From assembly GCA_018701055.1 (NCBI GenBank), contig JABIUH010000214.1, forward strand, positions 1 to 33,268: 33,268 nucleotides of DNA, written 5' to 3'. Of this stretch, positions 369 to 31,024 are shown piece by piece. The stretch is from Woeseia sp. (GTDB lineage: Bacteria; Pseudomonadota; Gammaproteobacteria; Steroidobacterales; Woeseiaceae). The notes beneath the pieces are model-generated. The model had not been told where the DNA came from. It saw only the letters and a program-made list of their open reading frames with translations, and ran no database searches. Made by a program: the position numbers and the translations under genes. The number at the start of each line of letters is the position of its first letter. Position 1 is the first letter of the stretch.

Positions 369-413
369 AAAAACTGGGTCAGAGCCCAATTAAAGGGCTC
401 TGACCCAGTTTTT
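369..413. repeat. REP-like palindrome downstream of the RAYT gene: 19-nt perfect arms AAAAACTGGGTCAGAGCCC / GGGCTCTGACCCAGTTTTT, 7-nt loop; probable bidirectional terminator
   Basis: Arms 369-387 and 395-413 are exact reverse complements; A-run on one side and T-run on the other; the RAYT stop codon (412-414) overlaps the last bases. Confidence 0.93.
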
Positions 414-1104
414 ATCGAACTGTTCGCGGTCGACCCGGGATGCCAGATCCCAATGACACATCAAGTGTTACCTCGATTTTTTCTCGAAATTGAGTAGATC
501 CGACTGGCAGGCCTTTGTTCGTCCCGAAACGTATTGCATCGAAATCATCTTCAGTGGTTCCCGAAGAAAAGATGCGTCGATACCGCTCCGATCGCAAATT
601 CGGGTCTTTACTGAGTTGTAAGAGTTCTTGTCGCGGTTTGACAAGTGCACTCTTCGATCCGAGAGCGTTTACACGATAACTTGACCACCTATAGTCGTCA
701 GGAACATTAACCATGTGCGCGCGAACCGGATTCAATTCTATGTATCTATAGCAAGCGAAGAGATAAGTTTCTGAGTCAATCAGCGTGGATCGGAAACGAC
801 CTTCCCAAAAAGTGCCAGATCTTTGGTTGTACTTATTGAATAGCTGTACATACTTCCGACCAACTTGCTGCATCATTCGTGATGCCCCATCAATGGTGGT
901 AGGTGTCACCAGCAAATGCACATGGTTCGTCATAAGTACGAAAGCGTGAATGTCGACTTCGTACTTTGTCGACATTTCAGCGAGTGAATTGAGATACATG
1001 ACGTAATCTTGATTACGATGGAAACACGGCAGCCTATTGTTGCCACGCTGCACAATGTGCATTGGGTAACCAGGAATACAAAGGCGTTTCATTCTAGGCA
1101 TCAT
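412..1104 (-). mobile_element. REP-associated tyrosine transposase (RAYT, Y1_Tnp/HUH superfamily), coding sequence
   Basis: 230 aa; HUH motif NHVHLLVTP, YRYIELNPVRA catalytic-Tyr context, N-terminal PGYPMHIVQRGNNR; flanked by matching palindromes. Confidence 0.93.
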
Positions 1105-10171: not shown

Positions 10172-10195
10172 GCTCCGCAAGGGGCTTTATTTTTT
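10172..10195 (+). terminator. Intrinsic terminator, GCTCC-GCAA-GGGGC then TTTATTTTTT
   Basis: Stem 10172-10176/10181-10185 (one G-U), GCAA tetraloop, T-rich tract; 26 nt past the stop of 9903..10145. Confidence 0.8.
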
Positions 10196-10198
10196 CGC

Positions 10199-10219
10199 GG
10201 TCAGAGTAATACTCTGACC
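10199..10219. repeat. REP-like palindrome GGTCAGAGTA-A-TACTCTGACC
   Basis: 10-nt perfect arms around a single A; between the convergent ends of 9903..10145 and parB. Confidence 0.9.
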
Positions 10220-10232
10220 CGGATTTAAGGGG

Positions 10233-19459: not shown

Positions 19460-19466
19460 ATGCCTT

Positions 19467-19491
19467 GGGGTCAGAGTAATACTCTGACCCC
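19467..19491. repeat. REP-like palindrome GGGGTCAGAGTA-A-TACTCTGACCCC
   Basis: 12-nt perfect arms, between convergent gene ends at 19459 and 19514. Confidence 0.93.
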
Positions 19492-19513
19492 TTTGATTTA
19501 GGGCGCTTTAATT

Positions 19514-26597: not shown

Positions 26598-27923
26598 ATG
26601 AAGCGCTGGCTTGTGATTCTGCTCGTAATTCTAGCTTTGGTTATATTGATATCACCGGGCATTGTCGGTCGACTCGCCGAAGAAAAACTTGCAGACGGCA
26701 TCGCCTGGACGGAGTTGGATAGCCCCGGCTTTAAGATCGCAACGGAAACTTTCGAGCGTGGCTGGTTTACGTCTGAAGGGCGCCATCGCGTGGTTTTCGA
26801 AGACGGCCAATTTCAAGAAGCCACTGAAATGTTTTCTGCCGCTACCGGTAGCGACTCTTTGCCATCCTTGATAATTGATACCCGACTCGATCACGGGCTT
26901 CTACCTGTCACATCGTTGGGTCGCGATCAGGGAAGCTTAGCGCCGGGCCTGGCAAGATCCGTTTCGACCCTTCGGCTTGACGTTGGCGATGGCGGTATCA
27001 TTGAGATTCCAGGCGCTTTGTATAGCAATGTAGGGCTGGCGGGGGCAAGCGATGCGCGCCTACTGCTCGATCCGGTGAAGTTCGATCTCGACGGCGCAAT
27101 CATTGAGTGGCAAGGCGCTGATTTGAACGTCCACACCCATTCGGGAGCACGCAAGCGTTCGTTCGAGGGGGTGGTTGAATCCATCAGCCTGGCTGCCGTG
27201 GGAATAAACGCTGGGATCGAGTCTTTTACCATCGATGCGGATCAATCGGCAACGCCATACGGGTTCCGTCTGGGAAACGCTGATATAACCCTGACCAATC
27301 TGGTGTTCGGAGCCGATGGCGCTGCCATCTCGGTCGACAGCGTTGCTGTGAAAGCAAACACGGGGATTGAGGATGAGCGGGTATCGGGCTCCACGATGTT
27401 GAGCGTCAATACTCTGACCGGCCCAACTGGCGATGTCGATATTGACCTGAAAATGACGTTTAGTGAGTTTGATGCGGCGTCGTTAGGCGTTATTTCGACG
27501 GCACTACGCGAAGCACAAGGTGCGACTGACCCCCAAACAGCATTAATGGAGATTTATCCAGCCATTGAAGACGACGTCCAAACGTTGCTGCAAAAGGGGC
27601 TCAAATTTAGCGTCGATCAGTTGGACGTGTCACTGCCGCAAGGTGTGCTGACAACCAATATAGCCTTTGATGTTCCGGAAACCGACCCGAGCGATAACTT
27701 CTCCTGGCCGGGCGTGATTTTGAGTATGACAGCGTCAATCGACGTAAAGATACCGATCGCACTGTTCGACAGGGTCGCAATGATGAACCCTGAAGCAGGC
27801 ACCCTTGTCGCGATGGGATTCTTGCAAAAAGAGGGCACGGATTACGTAATGGACGCGGACTACGCGAAGGGTCTGATCAACGTAAACGGTGCGCCAATGC
27901 CGATTCCCATCCCGGGTCTTTGA
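26598..27923 (+). CDS. DUF945/YdgA-like family protein
   Basis: 441 aa; N-terminal TM anchor MKRWLVILLVILALVILISPGIVGRLAEEKL; ...FERGWFTSEGRHRVVF typical of the family. Confidence 0.75.
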   Translation: MKRWLVILLVILALVILISPGIVGRLAEEKLADGIAWTELDSPGFKIATETFERGWFTSEGRHRVVFEDGQFQEATEMFSAATGSDSLPSLIIDTRLDHGLLPVTSLGRDQGSLAPGLARSVSTLRLDVGDGGIIEIPGALYSNVGLAGASDARLLLDPVKFDLDGAIIEWQGADLNVHTHSGARKRSFEGVVESISLAAVGINAGIESFTIDADQSATPYGFRLGNADITLTNLVFGADGAAISVDSVAVKANTGIEDERVSGSTMLSVNTLTGPTGDVDIDLKMTFSEFDAASLGVISTALREAQGATDPQTALMEIYPAIEDDVQTLLQKGLKFSVDQLDVSLPQGVLTTNIAFDVPETDPSDNFSWPGVILSMTASIDVKIPIALFDRVAMMNPEAGTLVAMGFLQKEGTDYVMDADYAKGLINVNGAPMPIPIPGL

Positions 27924-27928
27924 AAGTG

Positions 27929-28413
27929 AAAAAGGCGTCAGATTACTGCTGTCCCATAAACTCGCTGATTACAGTTTAGTTTCGAGTATCTCCAATTGAA
28001 TCAACCGTAGGAGCGGCATCCTGCGGCGATTCAATGCTTCATCGCGCCTGGGTCGCTCTCGGTCGTGGCTGTGTGAAAATCTAACATTACGTCTTTGCGA
28101 GGAGGCAGAGCCGATGAAGCAATCCAGTTATTCAATGATTGATGGATTGCTTCGCTGCGCTCGCAAAGACGTAATGTTAGATTTTCACACAGCCTCGGCT
28201 ATCCATGGCCTGCGCGACGTTCGGACTCCTGTCCATCAAGGGGTTCCTACGGTTCTTCGCACTAAATCGATGTCTACTTTACATTCGGTGTGGCGGCGGG
28301 CCTGGTTGGATAACGCTAATCAACAATTTGACCACAACTTTATGGGACAGCAATGGCGTCAGATCTATGTATCGGTTCAGCAAGAAATTGATCAATAGAT
28401 CTGACCCCTTTTT
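27929..28413. repeat. ~485-bp nested inverted-repeat element with 15-bp imperfect TIRs (AAAAAGGCGTCAGAT / ATCTGACCCCTTTTT)
   Basis: Four concentric inverted repeats: 27929-27943/28399-28413 (14/15), 27947-27960/28339-28352 (14/14), 28003-28012/28245-28254 (10/10), 28067-28100/28161-28194 (34/34). Confidence 0.88.
28067..28194. repeat. 128-bp palindromic repeat with 34-bp perfect arms (GGCTGTGTGAAAATCTAACATTACGTCTTTGCGA)
   Basis: Arms exact; inner GAAGCAATCCA (28116-28126)/TGGATTGCTTC (28143-28153) also pairs. Resembles the widespread GTC-TTTGCGAGGAGGC...GAAGCAATCC type of bacterial repeat. Confidence 0.95.
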
Positions 28414-28415
28414 AG

Positions 28416-30179
28416 TTAGTAACCTAGATCCAATTCGTCTGCACGGTGGCAAGCTACCGAACCAAACGGCTCCTCTCGGAAGTCTGGCAATCTGTCACTG
28501 CACATAACAATGGCATGCTCACAGCGTGGATGAAACGGGCAACCACTGGGTGGCGACAGAATCGACCCTACCTCGCCAATGAGTGATCGATGTGTCGATT
28601 GGATGTCTGGATCTGGCACGGGCACGGCGTCAAGCAGCGCTCGGGTGTAAGGATGGCGTGGGCGCGAAAACAGCGCATCGTTGTCTGCAACCTCGCAAAG
28701 CCTGCCCATGTACATCACTGCAACTCTATGCCCAAGCTGGCGCACCACGGCGAGATCATGGGTAATAAATACTATTGCCACGCCACTTTGAGCTTGTTCG
28801 GCTTGCAACAGGTTCAGAATCTCTTCTTGTACCGTCCCATCGAGAGCGGCAACCGCTTCGTCACAAATTAGAACGGCCGGTTTGAGAATCAACGCCCGTG
28901 CAATGGCAACCCGCTGTGCCTGACCACCGGATAACTCATGCGGAAAGCGATATAGATATTCACTGCTAATGCCGACGCGTGCCAACATCGCCGTTGCTGT
29001 AGCTTGCGCCTGAGTATTTTCGCCATGGACAATCAATGGCTCTGCAACAATATTGACTATCCGCATTGCAGGGTTCAACGAGGCAAGTGGATCCTGAAAT
29101 ATCATTTGTAAATTCCGATGCTGCAGTGCGGTTCGCGCGCCAACGGTGGCTGCTAATCGATCACCGAGAAACGACACTACGCCCGTTGTTGGTATGAGCC
29201 CTACTAACGCGCGCACCAAACTGGTTTTTCCGGACCCTGACTCGCCCACGATCGCGAGCGTTTCTCCACGTCGCAATGAGATATCGGTTGAACGCACTGC
29301 ATGGAGATTTTTATGACCACCAAGACGCCTTTCTTTGAACCCGACGGAGATATCACGAGCATCGAGAACAACATCGTCACCCGCTTGCGTCGTCGGCGCG
29401 TTGCGATCGATGCGTGGCGCGACCGCTAACAACGCTTTCATTTTATCACTCGAAGGCGAAGCAAAAATCTTAGCTGTTTTACCCTCTTCCACCAGCCGCC
29501 CACGATCCATAACCAGCAAGCGGTCGCAATGTCCGGCGACAACGCTGAGGTCATGAGTAATTAACAGGAGTGCCGCATCGGTTTCTTCACGAATAGAGGC
29601 TAACAACGTTAAAACCTGAGCCTGAACAGTAACGTCAAGCGCCGTTGTAGGTTCGTCGGCGATCAACAAGTCGGGCGCGCCAAGAAGGGCGGCACCGATC
29701 ATGACGCGTTGTCGCATACCGCCCGATAGTTGATGCGGAAAGACTCGAAACTGCCGGTCGGGATCAGGCAACCCAACCTTGGTAAGCATCGCCAACACTC
29801 GTTGTACCGCTTCATTGGGGGGACAAAACTTATGTTCCAACAGAATTCGCTGCAGTTGGGAACCGATGCAAATATAGGGATTAAGCGCGGACAGAGGATC
29901 CTGAAATACCATCGCGATGCGACGCGCACGAATCTGGTTTAGCGTTGCAGTGCTTGCGCCCAAAATTTCCGTCTGCTCGATTAATACGCTGCCGCCTATT
30001 TTTGCATTCGTCGGCAGCAAACCCATGATTGCCATTGCTGTTTGCGTTTTGCCGGACCCTGATTCACCAACCAAGCCAAGGCACTCACCTTTCTGTATTG
30101 AAAAGCTCAAATTCTCAACTACAGCGCCGTCACTCCGTGGGTATCTAACCTGCAGGTTTTGCACTTTCAGTAACGACAT
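28416..30179 (-). CDS. Fused dual ATP-binding subunit of a peptide ABC transporter (OppD-OppF/YejF-like)
   Basis: Likely start MSLLKVQNLQVRYP (ATG 30177-30179); two Walker A (GESGSGKT) and two LSGG signatures; C-terminal GCPFHPRCEHA. Confidence 0.95.
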   Translation of the reverse strand: MSLLKVQNLQVRYPRSDGAVVENLSFSIQKGECLGLVGESGSGKTQTAMAIMGLLPTNAKIGGSVLIEQTEILGASTATLNQIRARRIAMVFQDPLSALNPYICIGSQLQRILLEHKFCPPNEAVQRVLAMLTKVGLPDPDRQFRVFPHQLSGGMRQRVMIGAALLGAPDLLIADEPTTALDVTVQAQVLTLLASIREETDAALLLITHDLSVVAGHCDRLLVMDRGRLVEEGKTAKIFASPSSDKMKALLAVAPRIDRNAPTTQAGDDVVLDARDISVGFKERRLGGHKNLHAVRSTDISLRRGETLAIVGESGSGKTSLVRALVGLIPTTGVVSFLGDRLAATVGARTALQHRNLQMIFQDPLASLNPAMRIVNIVAEPLIVHGENTQAQATATAMLARVGISSEYLYRFPHELSGGQAQRVAIARALILKPAVLICDEAVAALDGTVQEEILNLLQAEQAQSGVAIVFITHDLAVVRQLGHRVAVMYMGRLCEVADNDALFSRPRHPYTRALLDAVPVPDPDIQSTHRSLIGEVGSILSPPSGCPFHPRCEHAIVMCSDRLPDFREEPFGSVACHRADELDLGY

Positions 30180-31024
30180 CAGGTTGTGCTTTTTGGATCG
30201 ACAAGATCGCGCAATCCATCGCCCAGGTAATTGAAGCAGACCAGGATTAACGCCAGCGCAGTAGCGGGTATCACCATCAACCACGGTGCGCTTTCCATGT
30301 AATTGACGCCCCCATTAACCAATGAGCCCAGAGAGGTCTGTGGCTCCTGAATTCCCAATCCAAGAAAACTCAAAAATGACTCAACTAAAATAGCCTGTGG
30401 AATTGTCAGGGTCATGTAGACAACCACAATTCCGAGCAGGTTTGGCGTTATATGGCGCCAGATAATGCCGCCACTCGAAACGCCGATGAGTCTGGCCGCA
30501 TCAACGAAACCACGCTGTTTAAGACTGATGGTTTGCCCACGAACAATTCGGGCCATATCGAGCCAGTTGATTGCGCCGATTGCAATAAAGATGAGCACCA
30601 TGCTTTGCTCAAAAACTACCATGAGAAGAATGACCAGAAAAATAAACGGCAGCGCATAGAGCGCGTCAACGCTTCGCATCATGATGGCGTCGACCTTTCC
30701 TCCCAGGTAACCGGCAATCGCGCCGTATAACACGCCGATAAAAAGACTGACCAAGCTGGCGATAACCGCAACAAATAGGGTGACTCGAACACCCATTAGC
30801 GTTCTGGAGAAAAGATCCCGACCAAGATCGTCTGTTCCAAAGTAGCTTTGCGCAGCCATGGCAGGAGACGAGAAGCGGTTGTAGAGATCGATACTCAAAT
30901 AATCGTTCCCAGTGAGATACGGACCTACAACAGAAATGAGACCAATAATTCCGAGGATGAATAAGGAAAGCGACACTGCGCGACTACGACGAAACGATGC
31001 TGGAAAAAAGGTATTACCGCTCAT
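30179..31024 (-). CDS. oppC: Peptide ABC transporter permease, OppC-like
   Basis: 281 aa; YFGTDDLGRDLFSRTLMGVRVTLFVAV; TGATG overlap with the downstream ATPase. Confidence 0.93.
   Translation of the reverse strand: MSGNTFFPASFRRSRAVSLSLFILGIIGLISVVGPYLTGNDYLSIDLYNRFSSPAMAAQSYFGTDDLGRDLFSRTLMGVRVTLFVAVIASLVSLFIGVLYGAIAGYLGGKVDAIMMRSVDALYALPFIFLVILLMVVFEQSMVLIFIAIGAINWLDMARIVRGQTISLKQRGFVDAARLIGVSSGGIIWRHITPNLLGIVVVYMTLTIPQAILVESFLSFLGLGIQEPQTSLGSLVNGGVNYMESAPWLMVIPATALALILVCFNYLGDGLRDLVDPKSTT

Follow-up and report, generated by a model that had tools for sequence, protein, structure and literature searches.

An apparent nest of five small palindromic mobile elements in a convergent gene gap of Woeseia

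The convergent gap between a DUF945 gene and an oligopeptide-type ABC ATPase gene in a draft genome of Woeseia sp. (518 contigs, 85% complete) spans 492 nt and is filled with concentric inverted repeats. We consider it very probable that the gap holds a nest of five small palindromic non-autonomous mobile elements, in which a composite IS4-family MITE is inserted in a hairpin. The layers, numbered from the inside outwards, are listed in Table 1; all positions refer to the window, that is, the whole stretch of 33,268 nt that was analysed.

Table 1. Features of the nest and its surroundings (window coordinates)
Feature	Position	Strand	Remarks
Y1_Tnp/RAYT gene, outside the nest	412-1104	-	PF01797, 47.7 bits; hairpins on both sides
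DUF945 gene	26598-27923	+	PF06097, E 1.6e-49
Whole inserted region	27924-28415		entire DUF945(+)/ABC ATPase(-) convergent gap
Layer 5, left half-arm	27929-27943		AAAAA plus first copy of the 10-bp GGCGTCAGAT (27934-27943)
Layer 4, IS4-family MITE	27944-28354		TIR ACTGCTGTCCCATAAA, 27945-27960 / 28339-28354; 10-bp duplication GGCGTCAGAT
Layer 3, GTAG-type REP dimer, one loop enlarged	28006-28251		CGTAGGAGC...CTCCTACG; standalone copies
Layer 2, minimal IS1182-family MITE, 132 bp	28065-28196		ends G(A/T)GGCTGTGTGAAAA
Layer 1, CGTC-type REP dimer, 82 bp	28090-28171		CGTC tags outward, CCA tails
Layer 5, hairpin GGCGTCAGATCTAT...ATAGATCTGACCCCTTTTT with second target-duplication copy	28355-28413		joined empty site refolds
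Oligopeptide-type ABC ATPase gene	28416-30284	-	stop codon 28416-28418

Results

The four inverted repeats described in the first-pass annotation are all present in the sequence. The outer arms (27929-27943 / 28399-28413) pair at 14 of 15 positions, the second pair (27947-27960 / 28339-28352) pairs at 14/14 and extends to ACTGCTGTCCCATAAA / ATTGCTGTCCCATAAA, the third (28003-28012 / 28245-28254) pairs at 10/10, and the inner stem (28064-28101 / 28160-28197) pairs at 37 of 38 positions, with a perfect run of 35 bp rather than the 34 bp originally given. These repeats are not due to chance because 500 shuffles yielded no perfect inverted 14-mer (0.000 per shuffle, maximum 0) compared to the 23 observed. 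Perfect inverted 10-mers are also in excess (37 observed vs 0.11 per shuffle); the 10-bp layer is weak by count alone, with about 0.1 expected, and is confirmed by homology to standalone copies. As annotated, 6 nt separate the DUF945 stop from the first base of the element; the other border of the element lies 2 nt, not 3 nt, before the ABC ATPase stop. The count of layers changed as well: five rather than four were resolved, the one previously missed being the CGTC REP dimer within the innermost stem.

Comparison with relatives identifies the gap as an insertion. The order of the two genes is retained across the genus and the family, and both are intact in the window, given that their proteins align end to end with those of the relatives. 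The orthologous gaps measure −4, 9, 19, 27, 86, 105 and 139 nt in the same genus and −19, 4, 9, 39, 57 and 204 nt in other genera of the family. They are mostly in the range of −4 to +139 nt, and the insert is absent in the relatives. The 204-nt gap, from another genus (L045), contains a fragment of another MITE that shares the IS4-type end (TGCTGTCCTATAAA); this is an independent insertion into the orthologous gap. This separate remnant (L045 / L124) suggests that the gap is a recurrent landing place. In another member of the same genus (L044), a bare hairpin, AAAGGGGTCAGGCCCCGGCCCTGACCCTTT, lies directly 3' of the DUF945 gene, and no adjoining ABC gene was found. A tblastn search of the genome contigs with the DUF945 protein found no relative, and blastn against plasmids gave no match.

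Both strands of the region fold far more stably than expected (z-scores of −14.0 for the plus strand and −12.0 for the minus strand). Together with the location at two convergent 3' ends, and with a pre-insertion hairpin (AAAAAGG..CCTTTTT) that would resemble a terminator for both genes, these folds would fit a single structured non-coding RNA or bidirectional terminator under selection, the nested symmetry being its fold. Nevertheless, we regard this explanation as very improbable: the structure is missing at the orthologous junction of same-genus relatives, its layers are found separately, Rfam gave nothing plausible (its two best hits, to plant microRNA models, fall far under the cut-offs and are taken as chance), and a simple scan, counting loops of up to 8 nt only, gave no promoter-like or terminator-like site. 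The earlier proposal of a single large structured RNA or non-autonomous element survives in its second half, in that the inner four layers moved together as a composite; of its RNA half, the folding is all that was found.

The outermost pair had been taken for the terminal inverted repeats of an element. We found that GGCGTCAGAT is directly repeated, at 27934-27943 and 28355-28364 (10/10), and that excision of the insert along with one copy of this repeat rebuilds a single hairpin, AAAAAGGCGTCAGATCTAT...ATAGATCTGACCCCTTTTT, with a folding energy of −28.7 kcal/mol (z −3.8 with flanks). Therefore, the outer pair consists of a hairpin arm and a target-site duplicate. The resemblance of this layer to RAYT hairpins, also pointed out in the annotation, holds. 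Layer 5 is a probable RAYT/TIRtron-type hairpin, AAAAAGGnGTCAGATC...GATCTGACCCCTTTTT, split by layer 4; its GGGGTCAG agrees with GGGGWSAS, the motif typical of TIRtron repeats (PMC3733652), and GTCAGA..TCTGAC inverted pairs occur 70 times in the genome vs 0 in the control. A single Y1_Tnp/RAYT gene was found in the draft genome. It lies in the window, scores 74.5 bits against REP_Tyr_transpos (NCBIfam), under the 80-bit cut-off of that model, and forms a TIRtron-like unit with hairpins centred on 378-404 and 1171-1196 (AAAAACTGGGTCAGAGCC...). These hairpins (AAAAACTGGGTCAGAG) are related, not identical, to the layer 5 repeat. The window contains two more GTCAGAGTAATACTCTGACCC hairpins, at 10195-10222 and 19466-19494.

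Layer 4 shares its TIR (TGCTGTCCCATAAA) with full-length IS4-family elements of 1269 bp (L105) and 1098 bp (L106) in relatives, whose DUF4372 and DDE_Tnp_1 transposases score 181.6 and 252.8 bits, above the cut-off of NCBIfam transpos_IS4_1. The same TIR bounds MITEs of about 220 bp in one relative and is widespread, mainly in gammaproteobacterial genomes. Among two-ended elements with this TIR from many genomes, 30 of 43 are flanked by target duplications of 8-11 bp, compared to 0.9% for mismatched flanks, and the perfect 10-bp repeat around layer 4 conforms to this pattern. When symmetrised, the target profile shows weak palindromy. The idea that the MITE always lands in RAYT hairpins was rejected, as just 4 of the 16 rebuilt targets reached a folding z below −2; accordingly, we limit the claim to a weakly symmetric 10-bp target, a description that some hairpin arms fit. 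No DUF4372 transposase (PF14294) was found in the 85% complete host draft, which lowers the claim of present mobility, not that of origin; such genes are present in relatives. A literature search with the TIR string gave no match, and one with GTCATTGCGAG returned unrelated papers only. In two relatives (L107, L121), IS4-type MITEs are flanked by inverted, not direct, repeats (AAAAAGGTGTCAGATCAC...GTGATCTGACACCTTTTTT), so that hairpin arms extend the TIR and there is no target duplication. In a distant genome, that of an uncultured Pseudohongiella, MITEs of 207 bp that share this TIR (L275, L282) reside within the same kind of hairpin-type target, GGGTCAGAGT.

Layer 3 (CGTAGGAGCGGCATCC.../...CTCCTACG) combines a GTAG tag and hairpin, an inverted dimer arrangement and dispersed copies, as in GTAG-type REPs, with one of its two units long-looped. 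At four other loci of the host genome, C203, C64, C374 and C159 (L020, L024, L026 and L028), it occurs alone, with the inner layers absent. Across the point of insertion, the sequence of these empty sites is GGCCGAGA or GGCTGAGA. As to a RAYT cognate to these repeats, the sole Y1_Tnp gene found in the draft genome is bordered by GTCAGA hairpins, not by GTAG REPs.

The ends of layer 2 (GAGGCTGTGTGAAAA) interrupt layer 3 in a GGCC and enclose layer 1. In the window, the target duplication has probably decayed to GGTC (28061-28064) and GGCT (28197-28200); at the empty sites, the sequence is GGCC or GGCT. A full-length, 1598-bp IS1182 element of the host genome at C445 (L212) has these same ends, along with GGCC duplications and a transposase scoring 421.8 bits to transpos_IS1182. 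Exact GGCC duplications flank four elements, L212 and three others, and many sites of IS1182 ends resemble the palindrome CTGCTTTYGGCCRAAAGCAG.

Layer 1 shows the CGTC tag, short stem, CCA tail, outward dimer arrangement and multiple copies of CGTC-type REPs. Among the host-genome loci read, there are 30 CGTC dimer entries, 16 without IS1182 ends and 8 with both; because entries may overlap where tags cluster, these are not exact copy numbers. At three other loci of the genome (L002, L008 and L009), a 203-bp IS1182-CGTC unit carries an extra, hairpin-rich stretch of 71 bp (GACCGGCAACATCG...GCCCTTCGGGCGAGC) inside the CGTC dimer, which may represent a sixth layer.

The inner stem is unusually perfect. 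In the window copy only, the right IS1182 arm (28160-28196) is the exact complement of the left arm (28065-28101), whereas other copies carry a different right arm. This difference suggests quasipalindrome correction, and the near-perfect stem was probably homogenised afterwards. The same observation could be taken to mean that the whole palindrome-rich region arose locally, by duplication, inversion and arm homogenisation, with no serial insertion. We consider such an origin extremely improbable, given that homogenisation accounts for only about 20 bp of one arm, that every layer has genomic relatives with their own boundaries and duplications, and that it is contradicted by the layer 3 copies lacking layer 2.

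Layers 1, 2+1 and 3 are present as independent units at other places, and so are other IS4 MITEs. At C89, C167 and C362, the composite of layers 4+3+2+1 has its internal junctions in common but is set in different flanks. The C167 copy contains all four layers with the same internal junctions, is 94% identical over the first 205 bp and has lost one end; C362 retains the right half, with the layer-2-in-layer-3 junction in common with the window copy. Thus, both these copies have one damaged end. The genome is a draft in 518 contigs; even so, the C167 copy is in agreement at 94%. Because 4+3+2+1 is found at two other loci, it moved as one composite MITE. The shared junctions at C167 and C362 yield the order of events: layer 1 together with layer 2 entered layer 3 as a unit, layer 3 is within layer 4, and the composite entered hairpin 5. 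No copy of the IS4 MITE of the window's interior lacking the GTAG dimer was found, and accordingly the insertion of layer 3 into layer 4 is put forward only as an inference.

The composite could instead have been assembled with the help of recombination between copies, for example, exchange between homologous hairpins, rather than by a transposase at every step. The window copy and C362 have similar hairpin-arm flanks, AAAAAGG(C/G)G(T/C)CAGATTAC, and the MITEs of two other species mentioned above (L107, L121) have inverted flanks. In contrast, the window copy is bounded by a perfect 10-bp direct duplication and the flanks of C167 differ, so we consider recombination unlikely. The serial insertion of distinct palindromic elements that was proposed at the outset is upheld by independent layers, empty sites, target-site duplications at two of the insertions (one apparently decayed) and relatives without the insert.

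Discussion

Taken together, these observations translate into a model under which a CGTC REP dimer lies between IS1182-family ends of about 25 bp, making up the 132-bp MITE. This MITE then inserted at a GGCC within the long loop of a GTAG REP dimer, itself inside an IS4-family MITE; the dimer probably entered an existing MITE, as opposed to having had the MITE form around it. The resulting composite transposed as a unit, with an IS4 (DUF4372-type) transposase presumably acting in trans, and one copy landed in the left arm of the RAYT/TIRtron-type hairpin between the DUF945 and ABC ATPase genes, duplicating 10 bp. Movement by DDE transposases in trans appears most likely. The concentric appearance follows from inverted ends, carried palindromes and frequent insertion into palindromic or symmetric targets.

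The insertion may have affected transcription termination. On the plus strand (the DUF945 side), the split hairpin retains its stem and U-tract because the target duplication restored the arm. On the minus strand, a TIR sequence, no longer a run of U, now follows the hairpin stem. Judging from the sequence, if the hairpin once served as a terminator in both directions, its action may have become weaker in one of them.

All the layers belong to described classes, and insertion of repeats into one another is already known. GTAG- and CGTC-tagged REPs, REPtrons and TIRtrons have been described by Di Nocera et al. 2013 (PMC3733652), who found no dedicated transposase for the CGTC REPs and reported some REP dimers inside longer palindromes as well as a preference for convergent gaps. 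The nest resembles these repeats in its GTAG-tagged layer 3, its CGTC dimer with CCA tails, its TIRtron-like layer 5 with the GGGGWSAS motif and its convergent location; it differs in its stacking of several classes and in its CGTC dimers, which are framed by IS1182 ends accompanied by GGCC duplications. REPs are also known as IS targets, including those of ISRm22 of the IS4 family (Tobes and Pareja 2006, PMC1525189). As with ISRm22, the case analysed here involves IS4-family insertion into bacterial palindromes with GC-ended symmetric duplications; however, what was inserted is a MITE instead of a complete IS, the transposase belongs to the DUF4372 type, and strong hairpins are found in only 4/16 rebuilt targets. 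In pneumococcus, the BOX, RUP and SPRITE repeats are mutually inserted (PMC3049150), similarly small palindromic repeats nested in each other, whereas the nest comprises five layers of different families, with the order and the parents identified and the composite present in multiple copies. Like other IS1182- and IS4-family MITEs, those in the nest have the TIRs and target duplications of full-length elements, the duplication of the IS1182 MITE having apparently decayed; unlike the usual ones, the IS1182 MITE consists of hardly more than two ends enclosing a REP dimer, and the IS4 MITE carries three other elements. What is new is the depth of the nest, the resolved order with parent elements, the multi-copy movement of the composite and the CGTC dimers framed by IS1182 ends. 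A nest this deep and readable is unusual.

A broader, tentative proposal, to which we assign slightly less than even chances, is that CGTC REPs are cargo mobilised between IS1182-family ends and that the process is recursive, because IS4- and IS1182-type transposases would prefer palindromic targets while MITEs pick up palindromic REPs. If so, composites would keep enlarging from within and then move as units.

The nest can be read as a stratigraphic column that records the relative order in which five repeat families were active within a single lineage. Carriage of REPs by DDE-type MITEs would be a spreading route beside RAYTs. The nest hints at a way in which some orphan repeats are moved, and the mobility of CGTC REPs becomes a testable question. 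It also calls for caution: what looks like a very stable "structured RNA" in a convergent gap can be a stack of insertions.
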